Shown here piece after piece: positions 8,596-63,449 of a stretch of DNA of 64,000 nt (within the stretch, counting starts at the first letter, position 1; each line of letters opens with the position of its first letter). The stretch is from an uncultured Pelagibacteraceae bacterium. Lineage in GTDB: Bacteria > Pseudomonadota > Alphaproteobacteria > Pelagibacterales > Pelagibacteraceae. Position numbers and translations under genes: made by a program. Location of the stretch: the NCBI GenBank assembly GCA_902619595.1, contig CACNFE010000002.1, positions 1-64,000 of the forward strand. The letters run 5' to 3'. Under the pieces are notes generated by a model, which was not told the origin of the DNA, did not search any database, and saw nothing but the letters and a program-made list of their open reading frames with translations.

Positions 8596-9201
8596 TTACA
8601 AAATACTTATTAATATAGCAATAACAACTAAAGCAAATGCTGAAACTCTATTTATCTTTTGTGGATTCGCTTTGATCCAATGTATTAATTTATTAGCGAG
8701 TACGGCATATCCCATCAATGATAAGAAATCTAAAAAAACATAAGTTGAAATTAAGATAATAAATTGAATTACATAATTACCTTGAAAATCAATAAATTGT
8801 GGAAAAATAAAAGGAAAAAACATCCAAGCTTTTGGGCTAGTGCCAGCAATAAAAAAGCCATCATTAAAAAAGGAAAAGATATTTTTTTTTTTTGAGGATT
8901 TTGAATTAAATTTATTTAAACTCGAATTGTATAAATCATATGCTAAGTAACATAAGTACATAATCCCAGCCCATTTTAAGATTATCAAAAATATTGAATA
9001 ATCAGAAAAAAACGAACCAATAAAAAAAATTACTAAAGTTGCTTGAATTATATTGGCAGTTATATCTCCCAAAGCAGTCCATATACAATTTTTTACCCCA
9101 TAATTTATTGAATTAGATATTATTACTATTCTAGGAGTACCTGGTGTTATAAATAAAAATAAAATAATTTGTAAAAAAAGGAAAAATTCGAGAGGTAGCA
9201 T
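8596..9201 (-). CDS. LysE/RhtB-family amino-acid exporter
   Basis: 'LFLFITPGTPRIVIISNSINYGVKNCIWTALGDI' typical N-terminus; about 6 TM segments. Confidence 0.85.
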   Translation of the reverse strand: MLPLEFFLFLQIILFLFITPGTPRIVIISNSINYGVKNCIWTALGDITANIIQATLVIFFIGSFFSDYSIFLIILKWAGIMYLCYLAYDLYNSSLNKFNSKSSKKKNIFSFFNDGFFIAGTSPKAWMFFPFIFPQFIDFQGNYVIQFIILISTYVFLDFLSLMGYAVLANKLIHWIKANPQKINRVSAFALVVIAILISIL

Positions 9202-9320
9202 TTGAGTGATAGTCCTAAAAAACCGGGAGCTAAAGATGGCTAGATAGGACTATCTTTTTCCAATATAACACATGTTGAAAGAAAAGCATCAATCATTTAT
9301 TTAAATTTAGTAATTTTTAT

Positions 9321-59338: not shown

Positions 59339-59389
59339 GAATAATTTATTGAATCTTTAAATTAAGGTTTTATATTATAAATGTTGGAT

Positions 59390-59642
59390 TTCCAACTACG
59401 ACGATAAACGAATTTCGTAATAAACATTGCGGACGTGGGGGCAGTACCCACCACCTCCACCATTACAACTTATGGGGGTGAACTAGGATCGACGGATGTG
59501 TAAAAGTCTTTCTTTCGTTCGGGATTGTTCCACCGTGACGGGCTATTTTATAATTGCAAATGATAAATTTGCTCTTGCTGCTTAATTAATTTATTAATTA
59601 AGTAACGGGGTTTTGGGGCACCTGGCAACAGAACGCCCCTTT
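59390..59642 (+). ncRNA. ssrA: Circularly permuted (two-piece) tmRNA
   Basis: Acceptor piece ends ...CACCTCC-A-CCA (to 59462); 11-nt IVS; coding piece starts GGGGGTG (59474-59480), forming a full 7-bp acceptor stem with CACCTCC (one G-U). Tag ORF GCA AAT GAT AAA TTT GCT CTT GCT GCT TAA (59556-59585) = ANDKFALAA*. 3' end GGGGCACCTGGCAACAGAACGCCCC. The 5' end is approximate. Confidence 0.95.
59615..59642 (+). repeat. att-like direct repeat copy 1 (ssrA 3' end)
   Basis: GGGGCACCTGGCAACAGAACGCCCCTTT, identical to 60887-60914. Confidence 0.95.
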
Positions 59643-59709
59643 CTTATAAAAAAATCTTTAACCATTTCAATAATTTTAGAAAATTATTTTTGTTTTGACC
59701 ACATTTATA

Positions 59710-59876
59710 CCGCAGTTCAAATATTTTTGACTTCTGTCTTCTCATACTAAGTATTTATCTCTTTAGTATACTTTTTGATAAATATGCATGCCGCACTAAT
59801 AAATCTAGCCGCAGTTTGACCGCAATTATTTACAATTTCAAATATTTTTAACTTTGGGCACACATAGGTCGCAGTG
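59710..59876. repeat. Cluster of CCGCAGTT-like octamers plus 18-bp imperfect direct repeat
   Basis: CCGCAGTT 59710, CCGCACTA 59791, CCGCAGTT 59809, CCGCAATT 59820, TCGCAGTG 59869; TTCAAATATTTTTGACTT (59716-59733) vs TTCAAATATTTTTAACTT (59837-59854). Confidence 0.8.
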
Positions 59877-59886
59877 AAAAAAGAAA

Positions 59887-60483
59887 TTAATTAATTTTGC
59901 TATAATAGAATTCAGGTTGATTATTAATTTTGTTAAACGAACGCGGCCACTTTTTTTGGATTATTCTATTTTTAAAATTATTTAGAATAAACTTTCCCTC
60001 GTCTCTATAAGTGAAATGGAAACCTGCAACTTTTTCTGATTTAAATAAACCGTTCTCCCATTCAACATTAAAGAGAAAACTTTCTGAATTTTCTTTAGTT
60101 AAACCAGTTAATTCAATTTTATCAACGTAGCTATGTTCAAATTTAGTCATAATAATTGTTCTATCGTTGTCCCAGAATTCTCTCCAATAAGATGTGTAAT
60201 CGTATTTTTTGCTTAGTAGATTATTTGAAGTTTTAGACCTGCTTTGAAAAAAATGGTCTCTAACAAGTTGAGATTTAACCCTTGCATGTCCATCGTTCTC
60301 AACTATTGCTCCAACAGCGTTTGCGGTAATACCTACTACTCGCCAACTCCAAGGTTCCCAGCCTGTAATAGATGTTAAAAGATTTTTCTTTTTTTGATGA
60401 TCAAATGAGGAGTCAAAAACTTTAACATAAAATTCATACATCTCTTTTTTAAGTTTTTCACTTGGTTCAATTCCTTTGGACAT
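59887..60483 (-). CDS. Hypothetical protein in ssrA-linked module
   Basis: 198-aa ORF with plausible composition; no recognised family. Confidence 0.6.
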   Translation of the reverse strand: MSKGIEPSEKLKKEMYEFYVKVFDSSFDHQKKKNLLTSITGWEPWSWRVVGITANAVGAIVENDGHARVKSQLVRDHFFQSRSKTSNNLLSKKYDYTSYWREFWDNDRTIIMTKFEHSYVDKIELTGLTKENSESFLFNVEWENGLFKSEKVAGFHFTYRDEGKFILNNFKNRIIQKKWPRSFNKINNQPEFYYSKIN

Positions 60484-60775
60484 CTTTTGATTCTTTAAAA
60501 TTTAATTCTGCACCTTCAAGGTAATAACATCTCCAACCAAAATTCAATGCTTTTATTCTATCGTTTTTTGAAAGCCAAATTCTTGGATATTCTCCTTTAT
60601 AATCTTTAATAACTTTATCCACTTTCCAGCCATTATAAACATAACGATATAAATCTTTTTCATCCGAACAATCTATCCAAGCTTGATCTTCTGGTGCAAA
60701 AATTAAGGCTAGTGAAATTGCTATAAAGATTAATAAAAATATTGAGTAGAAAAAGTACTTAAAAATTTTAATCAC
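60467..60775 (-). CDS. Hypothetical membrane-anchored/secreted small protein
   Basis: 102 aa, N-terminal TM 'FKYFFYSIFLLIFIAISLALIFAP'; overlaps the downstream ORF. Confidence 0.6.
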   Translation of the reverse strand: MIKIFKYFFYSIFLLIFIAISLALIFAPEDQAWIDCSDEKDLYRYVYNGWKVDKVIKDYKGEYPRIWLSKNDRIKALNFGWRCYYLEGAELNFKESKDVQRN

Positions 60776-60886
60776 TAAACTTTTTTAATATTTAACTTGG
60801 GCACAATTAGGGTCCAATTTGGACACAGCTGCCAAAGAAATTTGAGTATTTTAAACTCTAGAATTGTTATATAACGTTAAAGGTTC

Positions 60887-60914
60887 GGGGCACCTGGCAA
60901 CAGAACGCCCCTTT
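60887..60914 (+). repeat. att-like direct repeat copy 2
   Basis: 28/28 identity to the 3' end of ssrA (59615-59642). Confidence 0.95.
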
Positions 60915-61736
60915 TTAATTATAATAACCAATCTCCTTTAAATATTTCTTGGACATGATTGGTAATAAAAATGCTTTTGGATTTTTAGGATAATTTTCCC
61001 ATAGAAATCCATGATCTTTACTTTCTGGGGATTTTAAAAAACCTTTGCTATTAGGACTTATGTTGAAAGAAATATGGTCGTTGGTTGCGTGACCTACATA
61101 ACCAATAAGTTCTCCTTTTTTAACAAATTTTTTTTTTATACCACCACAACTTTCTGGACCCACAATTTCATTTAGTCTTTGATTGGAATAAAATTTTTTA
61201 TAAAACATTCTAATTTTACATTTACCTTTACCAAATCCGGGAACCAAAGGTGTTTGAGGCATTAAATGATAATACAATACCATGTCATTATTTACTGTTC
61301 GAAATGTTAATGAAAGCGCATCAAAAGGATATCTGCATTTAAGTTTTTCATTCGTATCTGGATGAACAATTTTCTTAAATTTTGCACCTTTAATATTTCT
61401 TGCATGAGTATTATTTTCAACTAAACAATGATACTCAGAACTTCTCTCACTTGCTGAAACTAACTCCATATCCATAACTGCAAAAACTGGCGTACCTCTT
61501 TTAACTTCAATAGATGTGCCCATTTTTCCTGCGTATCCTTTTCCTGTTGTACATGGACCGCCTGTTACTGCTGGCAACCAAGAGTTAGGTTGAGCGGTTG
61601 CGGTTACTCTTGCTCCATTAAATTTGCAAGGTAGTTTGTTATAAGTCTTATATTTAATCTTAGTCTCAGCAAACGAATGTGAGGTAAAAAGAGAAAACAT
61701 CAAAACTAGAAAAAAATATAGAGATAATTTTTTCAT
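60915..61736 (-). CDS. Secreted M23/lysostaphin-like peptidase-fold protein (possibly degenerate)
   Basis: Signal peptide; 'VKRGTPVFAVMDMELVSASE', 'FVKKGELIGYVGHATNDHISFNI' resembles the M23 domain (GxxIGxVG...HxHFxI). Confidence 0.6.
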   Translation of the reverse strand: MKKLSLYFFLVLMFSLFTSHSFAETKIKYKTYNKLPCKFNGARVTATAQPNSWLPAVTGGPCTTGKGYAGKMGTSIEVKRGTPVFAVMDMELVSASERSSEYHCLVENNTHARNIKGAKFKKIVHPDTNEKLKCRYPFDALSLTFRTVNNDMVLYYHLMPQTPLVPGFGKGKCKIRMFYKKFYSNQRLNEIVGPESCGGIKKKFVKKGELIGYVGHATNDHISFNISPNSKGFLKSPESKDHGFLWENYPKNPKAFLLPIMSKKYLKEIGYYN

Positions 61737-62662
61737 TCCTTAACAATCTCATATTTCAATTTTTTGATTTTCATTTCTCCAATGCCATCCCATATTTCGG
61801 TAGTAACCTCTATTCCTGGCACGATATCAGTATTTTTAACTAATTTTCTTTCTACTAAATAATCAAAAACCTGTTTTAGATTGATATCTATAGAATAGTT
61901 TCCATCTTTGTTAATTTTTGTATTTCTTTCAAAAGAGTCTATAGAAAAGAAATATTCTAAACCTTCAATTTTTCTTTTCGATTCTTGTCCTTTATTCGAC
62001 CAAACTATAAATTCATAATTATTAGTTTTAAGATTTTTAAATCTTATTTTTTTATGTTTTCTTGCTGTAGCATCAAATTTTAACATAATTTCAATAAAAG
62101 GTTTAACATCATCAGGATGTCTCAAAAAAAAAGTTATGTTGTTGTTATAGGTTCCCTTAGATTTAAAATTATAATCGTAGGCAAGTTGGAATTTCTTAAT
62201 TTCTCCAATGGATATAGGAAAATCTTTATTTGTTTCCCCATAACGATTTCCAGAACTACCTGTCCATGCCCTTTTACCAATAAGAGATGTGATATTTACC
62301 CAGGATTGTTTTTTTCCTGCTCTTGCTGAATATGATTTTACAGCAGTATAATAAAAACCAGTACCATCTTGTTTTATACAAACACCTAAACTTTTGCCAT
62401 GTTTATATTTTTTTTCTATTCCTCTTTTATGTTTAATTCCCCATGCATCAAATAAATACCAATCTGTATCAATATTTTCGTTTTTACTGACCTGACCAAA
62501 ATATTTTGTTCTTGAAAAATTTTCATCATAAATATTACAGTCTAGTTTATTGTCTTTATTCATCTTAAATTTATCAATATTTTCAACAGCATACTTTTCT
62601 GCAAATGAATATGCTGTAAAAAAAGGAAATATTAAAATTATAATTAGTAAAATTTTTCTCAT
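61733..62662 (-). CDS. Hypothetical secreted protein
   Basis: Signal peptide MRKILLIIILIFPFFTAYSFAE; 4-nt overlap with the M23-like gene. Confidence 0.65.
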   Translation of the reverse strand: MRKILLIIILIFPFFTAYSFAEKYAVENIDKFKMNKDNKLDCNIYDENFSRTKYFGQVSKNENIDTDWYLFDAWGIKHKRGIEKKYKHGKSLGVCIKQDGTGFYYTAVKSYSARAGKKQSWVNITSLIGKRAWTGSSGNRYGETNKDFPISIGEIKKFQLAYDYNFKSKGTYNNNITFFLRHPDDVKPFIEIMLKFDATARKHKKIRFKNLKTNNYEFIVWSNKGQESKRKIEGLEYFFSIDSFERNTKINKDGNYSIDINLKQVFDYLVERKLVKNTDIVPGIEVTTEIWDGIGEMKIKKLKYEIVKE

Positions 62663-62682
62663 ACTAAATAATTATAGAAATA

Positions 62683-62720
62683 TTATTAAAACAAATAAAT
62701 GTATTTATTTGTTTTAATAA
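62683..62720. promoter_or_regulatory. 18-bp-arm perfect palindrome upstream of the 61733-62662 gene
   Basis: TTATTAAAACAAATAAAT-GT-ATTTATTTGTTTTAATAA read directly; function inferred. Confidence 0.55.
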
Positions 62721-62901
62721 ATCGTAATATCAATTTTAAAGGCAATTTCAGGTTTTAGGGTACGATAAGAGAGTAATTGCCCCCGATTTCAATGAAGTTT
62801 CAAAACAAGGTTTGGGACAAAAGTTAAAACTCTCAATGAAGTCCTCAATGAAGTCTTTCAAAAAAGTCTTATTTTCTGTTATAAACTGGTTTAAGGAGTA
62901 G

Positions 62902-62916
62902 AACAGAACGCCCCTT
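62902..62916 (+). repeat. Partial att-like repeat copy 3
   Basis: AACAGAACGCCCCTT, 15/15 identical to the 3' part of the 28-bp repeat. Confidence 0.85.
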
Positions 62917-62988
62917 AATTCTGACACTTTTATTTAATAAAGTTTAAATTGTTAAAGTTAATTTTCATAACTTTAATAACTCCAAAAT

Positions 62989-63321
62989 ATGCAACAACAA
63001 GATTTATTTGATTTCAGGAGAGATATTCTCTTTGAAAGAGAAAATCAAATCGCTTGTTTTTATGATGTCCTTAGCGAAACTGAAGACACAATAAGTTATG
63101 CTGAACATATAGATCCTAAAAAAAAATTCTCTATATGTGGTATGGAATATGAAGAGTATGTTGATGTTAAAAAGAAATACTTAAAGGGTTTGACTTATGA
63201 TCAAATACTCAACTACTTAAAAAAATTTAAGAAAGAAGAAAGATTAGAAAAATATAAAATCTTACTTAAATTTAGAAACATACCTTTTGATGCTGATTTA
63301 TTTACTTGGAACAGCGATTAA
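62989..63321 (+). CDS. Hypothetical protein
   Basis: 110 aa, soluble, charged; isolated between att-like copies 3 and 4. Confidence 0.6.
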   Translation: MQQQDLFDFRRDILFERENQIACFYDVLSETEDTISYAEHIDPKKKFSICGMEYEEYVDVKKKYLKGLTYDQILNYLKKFKKEERLEKYKILLKFRNIPFDADLFTWNSD

Positions 63322-63430
63322 TTAACTTTACAACAAAGTATAGAGAATAAAACCAACTGAAAAGAAAACATGTCGTTCTGGCAATGAAGTATTCAAATAA
63401 CCTAAGTATTATGTAATTATTTGGTTCTAG

Positions 63431-63449
63431 GGGGACACAGAACGCCTCT
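63431..63449 (+). repeat. Degenerate att-like repeat copy 4
   Basis: GGGGACACAGAACGCCTCT; shares ACAGAACGCC (63437-63446) and a G-run with copies 1 and 2. Confidence 0.6.

Follow-up and report, generated by a model that had tools for sequence, protein, structure and literature searches.

A probable site-specific gene-cassette array anchored on the 3' end of ssrA in SAR11 bacteria

How might a streamlined genome exchange genes without an obvious mobile element, and why should the end of an RNA gene recur behind that gene in series? SAR11 bacteria are among the most abundant bacteria, and their streamlined genomes hold few known mobile elements. We address these questions in a 64,000-nucleotide stretch of DNA from an uncultured Pelagibacteraceae bacterium (the window: positions 1 to 64,000, forward strand, of contig CACNFE010000002.1, GenBank assembly GCA_902619595.1), in which the 3' end of ssrA, the gene for transfer-messenger RNA (tmRNA), is followed by further copies of itself. 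The region is probably an integron-like array of gene cassettes that cannot move on their own: anchored on the ssrA 3' end, they would recombine site-specifically under an unseen integrase acting in trans.

Copies of the ssrA 3' end and exact joins at the core

Upstream of ssrA lie hflK, mrp and thyX, all named from their sequence; in relatives (for example loci L062, L081, L085 and L087) the mrp-thyX-ssrA interval, too, carries variable insertions of up to several kb. Because the Rfam model ends at 59642, the first 28-nt copy is the true ssrA 3' end. The gene and its attachment (att) sites are as follows.

59345..59642, plus strand: ssrA, permuted two-piece tmRNA, array anchor and putative attB (Rfam alpha_tmRNA RF01849, 233 bits, model 1-355 of 355; also called as tmRNA by ARAGORN)
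59615..59642, plus strand: att site 1, the ssrA 3' end, 28 nt GGGGCACCTGGCAACAGAACGCCCCTTT, with core AACAGAACGCCCC at 59627-59639
60887..60914, plus strand: att site 2, GGGGCACCTGGCAACAGAACGCCCCTTT again, all 28 nt identical to the ssrA 3' end
62902..62916, plus strand: att site 3, core AACAGAACGCCCCTT behind a left half that is not that of ssrA, an att variant recurring in other genomes
63430..63446, plus strand: att site 4, GGGGGACACAGAACGCC (contains CACAGAACGCC, 63436-63446), a variant recurring in L053 and L120

The initial annotation, made from the letters of the window, had reported the 28-nt copy at 60887-60914 and the 15-nt core at 62902, and both are exact. The 15-nt core AACAGAACGCCCCTT starts at 59627, 60899 and 62902, always on the plus strand. 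With up to three mismatches it occurs four times in the window, against 1.03 occurrences expected by chance, and the 13-mer AACAGAACGCCCC is found in the window's own genome, which is 85% complete, solely at the three exact places. The annotation had also listed a degenerate copy near 63431-63446 and proposed an age gradient, with the most degenerate copy farthest from ssrA. A variant does stand there (63436-63446), but it is not a simple decay product, since its att type recurs elsewhere. Sites 3 and 4 are distinct att types found in other genomes rather than eroded copies, and they give an age gradient no support.

Is this arrangement peculiar to one genome? The core 13-mer is present in 255 of 300 genomes of the genus, and none of the 44 near-complete ones lacks it; the reversed pattern, as a control, gave one match across all 300. 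Carriers of the 26-mer are nearly all Pelagibacteraceae (SAR11), many of them single-cell isolates. The sites of any one array or contig all lie on the same strand, and their number reaches six in genome G154, five on one contig in G028 and seven in L114 (G197), counting one-mismatch cores. At least two sites occur at 56 loci; the 105 modules between successive sites measure 88-5810 bp, with a median of 815 bp. In all eight arrays tested ssrA is intact. Insertion repeated at one RNA gene, with direct repeats of its 3' part, is found here as in RNA-gene-anchored cassette islands, or additive flexible genomic islands (fGIs).

As in additive fGIs, too, content varies among close relatives and empty sites exist. 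Empty ssrA sites, which the annotation had proposed to look for, carry a conserved gene directly after ssrA (L058, L090, L098, L065-L069, L074, L086, L095); it belongs to family F015, F012 or F007, and F012/F007 look like nadA/ppdK by sequence. Fixed content and synteny among close relatives, which the annotation had named as the outcome that would tell against it, is not what we found: the closest relatives, L050 and L096 (hflK 100%, thyX 86% and 91% identical), hold homologues of the window ORFs in different order and company. The same-genus arrays thus bear out the proposal of integrase-less units with variable cargo, bounded by copies of the ssrA 3' end.

Can one cassette be traced from place to place? 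Identical right halves were found behind different left halves of the core, 23 of 28 recurring right-half families standing behind at least two left-half types. A 650-bp cassette is shared by three genomes, L077:1 and L128:0 being 99.5% identical and L048 matching at 98.8% over 500 bp. It takes the second place of an ssrA array in L077, lies 3' of an rnhA-like gene in L128, where the core sits 15 bp past the stop codon, and lies 3' of a pnp-like gene in L048. Outside the core the flanks of L077 and L128 are about 50% identical, that is, unrelated, and the join falls exactly at the core. Another cassette of 331 bp is 96.7% identical between L051:0 and L046:0, with flanks at 44% and 47%. A shared core with exact joins is a property of heterobivalent tyrosine-integrase att systems.

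Copies of the ssrA 3' end were also seen near the stop codons of pnp (L048, L063) and rnhA (L056, L057, L071, L128, L143, L389). Their cores start about 11-22 bp after the stop codon, some come with cassettes, and the copy in L388 is decayed.

Paired end repeats and the plan of a cassette

What distinguishes the ends of a cassette? The last 150-200 bp are conserved scaffolds of a few types. Within them lie short direct repeats with a period of about 11-12 bp that differ between cassettes, and the word repeated there recurs at the left end of the same cassette. Such paired words are CGGGATATGTACGGG (L079), CACGAAGTTTTACAC (L096, L072), CTACTATGTAC (L077, L128), GGTGGCGTCAC (L145) and TGACTCGG (L132, L144). 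Related cassettes being non-independent, the statistics show pairing and not a number of events: the left-right similarity score was 14.07 for own ends versus 11.22 +/- 0.17 for re-dealt ends (102 modules); own ends shared 405 6-mers versus 185 +/- 17, a count reached in none of 2000 re-deals (94 modules); and inside one scaffold family of 12 cassettes the count was 73 versus 39 +/- 7.1, again with 0 of 2000.

Repeats that stand to either side of a core have the layout of the attP arms of lambda-type tyrosine integrases, and direct repeats flank the core as in a heterobivalent att system, judged by sequence and not by binding. The attP of ICEMlSymR7A, for example, spans 283 bp and carries five P/arm-type motifs, all of which are needed (PMC11963761). 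Like it, the SAR11 cassettes have a core with short repeats on either side, several of them in tandem. Unlike it, they have no adjoining integrase gene, and the repeat sequence varies by cassette within a conserved scaffold.

We propose that each cassette has a left (P'-like) and a right (P-like) end, with the cargo between them, and would contribute one core AACAGAACGCCCC. A circular cassette would integrate into ssrA or any core of the array, restoring ssrA and adding one core; arrays would grow by tandem insertion and lose cassettes by recombination of core with core. The private end repeats would be arm-type sites of a heterobivalent (lambda-type) tyrosine integrase, presumably supplied in trans by an element absent from these genomes. 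Beyond this, it is possible, and we put it forward tentatively, that the repeats act as an address. SAR11 bacteria might share a large pool of integrase-less cassettes that use one core at ssrA, also present at pnp and rnhA, and that include a related family at groEL; matching, fast-changing end repeats might pair the correct ends among the identical cores of an array and tie each cassette to one of many helper integrases, making the system integron-like with diversified arm specificity.

In the window, cassette 1 (59643 to about 59850) is cargo-less, with ACCGCA-type arms at both ends (59694-59715, 59790-59824). Cassette 2 (about 59850 to 60886) holds ORFs A and B and TTGGGCACA at 59854 and 60797; cassette 3 (60915-62901) holds ORFs C and D; and cassette 4 (62917-63435) holds ORF E, with arms at 63331 and 63382. 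The segment 59643-60886 looks like two cassettes whose intervening core was lost, a split suggested by the end repeats. None of the window cassette ORFs has a Pfam match above cut-off.

59694..59715, plus strand: P'-like arm repeats (TTTGACCACATTTATACCGCAG) of cassette 1; the word type matches left arms in L118:0 and L141:1
59790..59824, plus strand: P-like arm repeats (GCCGCAC..GCCGCAG..GACCGCA) that, to judge from arm pairing, would close cassette 1, the core behind them lost
59854..59874, plus strand: P'-like arm repeats (TTGGGCACA..GGTCGCAG) opening cassette 2; TTGGGCACA again at 60797-60805
59887..60483, minus strand: ORF A, 198 aa, no Pfam match (cassette 2)
60467..60775, minus strand: ORF B, 102 aa; arrays L049, L050 and L072 carry homologues (cassette 2)
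60797..60827, plus strand: P-arm repeats TTGGGCACAATTAGGGTCCAATTTGGACACA (cassette 2)
60915..61736, minus strand: ORF C, 273 aa, a probable secreted protein whose similarity to Peptidase_M23 is weak (25.1 bits against a cut-off of 28.7; cassette 3)
61733..62662, minus strand: ORF D, 309 aa, a probable secreted protein without a Pfam match (cassette 3)
62790..62855, plus strand: P-arm repeats CAATGAAGT at 62790, 62834 and 62846, an arm type common to L096, L045, L053, L055 and L115
62989..63321, plus strand: ORF E, 110 aa; arrays L045, L064, L072 and L096 hold homologues of 91-96% identity (cassette 4)
63331..63390, plus strand: P-arm repeats CAACAAAGT (63331) and CAATGAAGT (63382) (cassette 4)

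Cassettes elsewhere follow a stereotyped plan. Most module ORFs of at least 60 aa (132/168) are oriented towards ssrA. Seventy modules have a minus-strand ORF of at least 100 aa; in 50 of them 110-157 bp separate its start codon from the right core. The stop falls either 13-20 bp or, most often, 77-123 bp past the left core. Other cassettes hold a plus-strand ORF that begins soon after one core and finishes shortly before the next. The cargo comprises small secreted or membrane proteins (judged by eye), and named examples are a type I restriction system (L096), a DNA methyltransferase (L055), a trypsin-like protease (L115) and a GIY-YIG protein (L121). Promoters at right ends reading into the next cassette were considered and dropped, a sigma-70 scan of one array giving 21 sites versus 27 expected.

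Two further observations concern the surroundings of the cores and scaffolds. F028, probably a secreted protein of 68-80 aa (..FAGSCPMM..), recurs beside cores at L051, L072, L083, L084, L049 and L078. Downstream of groES-groEL, in those loci that have this flank (G000:C4:62207 = L346/L354; L355-L361), the same P-arm scaffold, CAATGAAGTTTTCAATGAAGT..AAATAAGTGAG, is followed by a different sequence, ..GCGAATGTAGGCGAATGTAATCCC, and probably represents a second cassette family at another site.

Candidate recombinases and rival explanations

Which enzyme could act on these ends? The annotation had seen no recombinase in the segments, and we confirm that no tyrosine recombinase lies inside them. 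Profile and phmmer searches for an integrase in 176 loci returned nothing significant while recovering the positive-control loci, and no integrase fragment turned up across the 105 modules. In IMG/VR, three longer cassette-end patterns had zero matches, and blastn against INPHARED and PLSDB gave no relevant match. A phage attP was sought through the 19-mer, which matched only eight IMG/VR phage contigs (L034-L041) that share a tmRNA-type 3' end; five of the eight have a recognisable ssrA motif upstream, with NrdA-like and other T4-like genes as neighbours, and phage-borne tmRNA of SAR11 type is already known (PMC9004378). The 15-mer found 15 places in IMG/VR with no common context, taken as chance. 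The arm pattern CAAYGAAGTTTNCAAYGAAG found 21 that look like coding repeats, none with a core.

Might the host's own enzyme suffice? The annotation had suggested a search for a cognate integrase elsewhere in the genome, and one tyrosine recombinase does lie on contig C6.

G000:C6:59092-59616 (L042) and 26 orthologues: host recombinase locus, palindrome before the start codon

This genus-wide protein of 325 aa, probably the 'phage integrase' of hypervariable region 2, is the sole PF00589 match in its own genome and in the single-contig, 100% complete G012. The family is matched in 35 of 37 near-complete genomes, and R, K, HxxR, H and Y motifs can be recognised by eye. From its glycosyltransferase-like neighbours and the published description (PMC2217521) it is probably the 'probable phage integrase' SAR11_0551. 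That it moves the cassettes is nevertheless unlikely. In 27 of 27 orthologues the start codon directly follows a conserved palindrome of about 33 bp, of the TTACTAATGATAA-TTAATTG-TTATCAATAGTAA type and unrelated to the ssrA core; alignment to the XerD profile already begins at residue 28, which leaves no room for an arm-binding domain; and the many arm sequences would be hard for one enzyme to read. The protein scores far below the XerC/XerD cut-offs. Every sister-family genome has two distant homologues (25-28% identical and, to judge by size, XerC/XerD-like); in complete members of the genus this is the one strong match. By analogy, recombinase and palindrome may form a single-Xer/dif system long labelled a phage integrase. 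Since the host recombinase has its own dif-like palindrome, unlike the ssrA core, we favour an unseen helper in trans, and mobilisation in trans, one of the two readings first offered, is upheld as the best.

The other reading took the segments for remnants of serial integration and decay, as leftovers of once autonomous islands or prophages at ssrA that had lost their integrase. We consider this rather unlikely. Decay to att-only units is an established route, and cis-mobilizable elements (CIMEs) and the tandem accretion of integrative conjugative and mobilizable elements have been reviewed (PMC5704250). The SAR11 units share with CIMEs their att flanks, here copies of the ssrA 3' end, the lack of integrase or transfer genes, the tandem position at one gene 3' end and potential mobilisation through shared att sites; some segments also look eroded: 59643-59850 has no cargo, and in L094 and L129 a remnant of some 128 bp is left. 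Yet CIMEs are decayed larger elements, whereas the SAR11 units hold one to few genes, show no trace of an autonomous parent and keep the same compact plan intact in many genomes, and such cassettes recur at 98.8-99.5% identity across different loci. The searches of the 105 modules brought up no integrase fragment, an absence that does not prove another origin.

Could these be true but diverged integrons, with attC cassettes and an integron integrase? A fixed anchor, an array of small reassorting cassettes with one recombination site each, and some plus-strand ORFs running from core to core (L134:8159, L146:5807) invite the comparison, but we judge it very improbable. No integron integrase (IntI) stands near the anchor in the 176 loci, direct repeats on both sides of the core give two attP-like ends instead of one folded attC (none was seen, although no attC-model search was made), and cargo mostly reads towards the anchor. 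The 2007 survey of SAR11 hypervariable regions by Wilhelm et al. likewise reports no integron signature and no attC (PMC2217521). We give almost no credence to the idea that homologous or illegitimate recombination spread the copies as a terminator or a structural RNA hairpin. The 28-mer has the potential to fold (GGGGC..GCCCC around a GCAA loop, T following), but the two full copies reach fold z-scores of only -1.8 and -2.1, and the other two 0.15 and -0.5. Unrelated flanks are joined exactly at a core of 11-15 bp, less than homologous recombination needs, and the idea does not account for the paired end repeats; core-joined cassette mobility already disfavours it.

Against the trans-mobilised array weigh several points. 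A recombinase with a matching attP was not found in the arrays, IMG/VR, INPHARED phages or PLSDB plasmids, though the cognate integrase may lie outside these collections, which for IMG/VR were searched by pattern. Excision or a circular cassette form is so far unobserved. At pnp and rnhA, genomes that lack a cassette also lack a native core, which leaves the origin of those copies unexplained, and no left arm is visible where the first ORF of a cassette stops 13-20 bp past the core.

Relation to known islands

Additive fGIs with gene cassettes at tRNA genes are described in 'Ca. Actinomarinales' (PMC7771536), and fGI-2 of 'Ca. Methylopumilus' has repeats of the last 20 nt of tRNA-Lys (PMC10872708). 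The SAR11 arrays resemble both in their streamlined aquatic hosts, small cargo behind an RNA gene, partial direct repeats of that gene and mostly unknown proteins. They differ in that the anchor is a permuted ssrA, arrays extend to seven sites, cassettes are as small as about 200 bp, one cassette could be followed through three loci, and private repeats are shared between the two ends of a cassette. Tycheposons, from Prochlorococcus and others, are likewise marine cargo elements tied to RNA genes; compared by their description in PMC10872708, they measure 4-200 kb and in Methylophilaceae have a tyrosine recombinase, whereas the SAR11 units span about 0.1-6 kb and carry no such gene. Our literature search, which reached few subscription papers, found no report of SAR11 ssrA cassettes or of paired private end repeats in integrase-less cassettes; as far as that literature shows, an address system of diversified arm specificity has not been described before.

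Besides the cassette-specific end repeats, the pnp, rnhA and groEL loci and the longer arrays elsewhere go beyond the initial annotation. SAR11 thereby gains a concrete, countable system of gene exchange, in which both the site and the units are defined and certain cargo recurs (secreted proteins, a DNA methyltransferase, a type I restriction system). It suggests an answer to the question asked at the outset, how gene exchange might proceed in a streamlined genome. The paired private repeats raise a question of their own: which enzyme reads them, and why do they diversify? Apart from the array, the window contains an Rfam rhtB small RNA (RF01814, 73 bits) at 9190-9272 on the minus strand.

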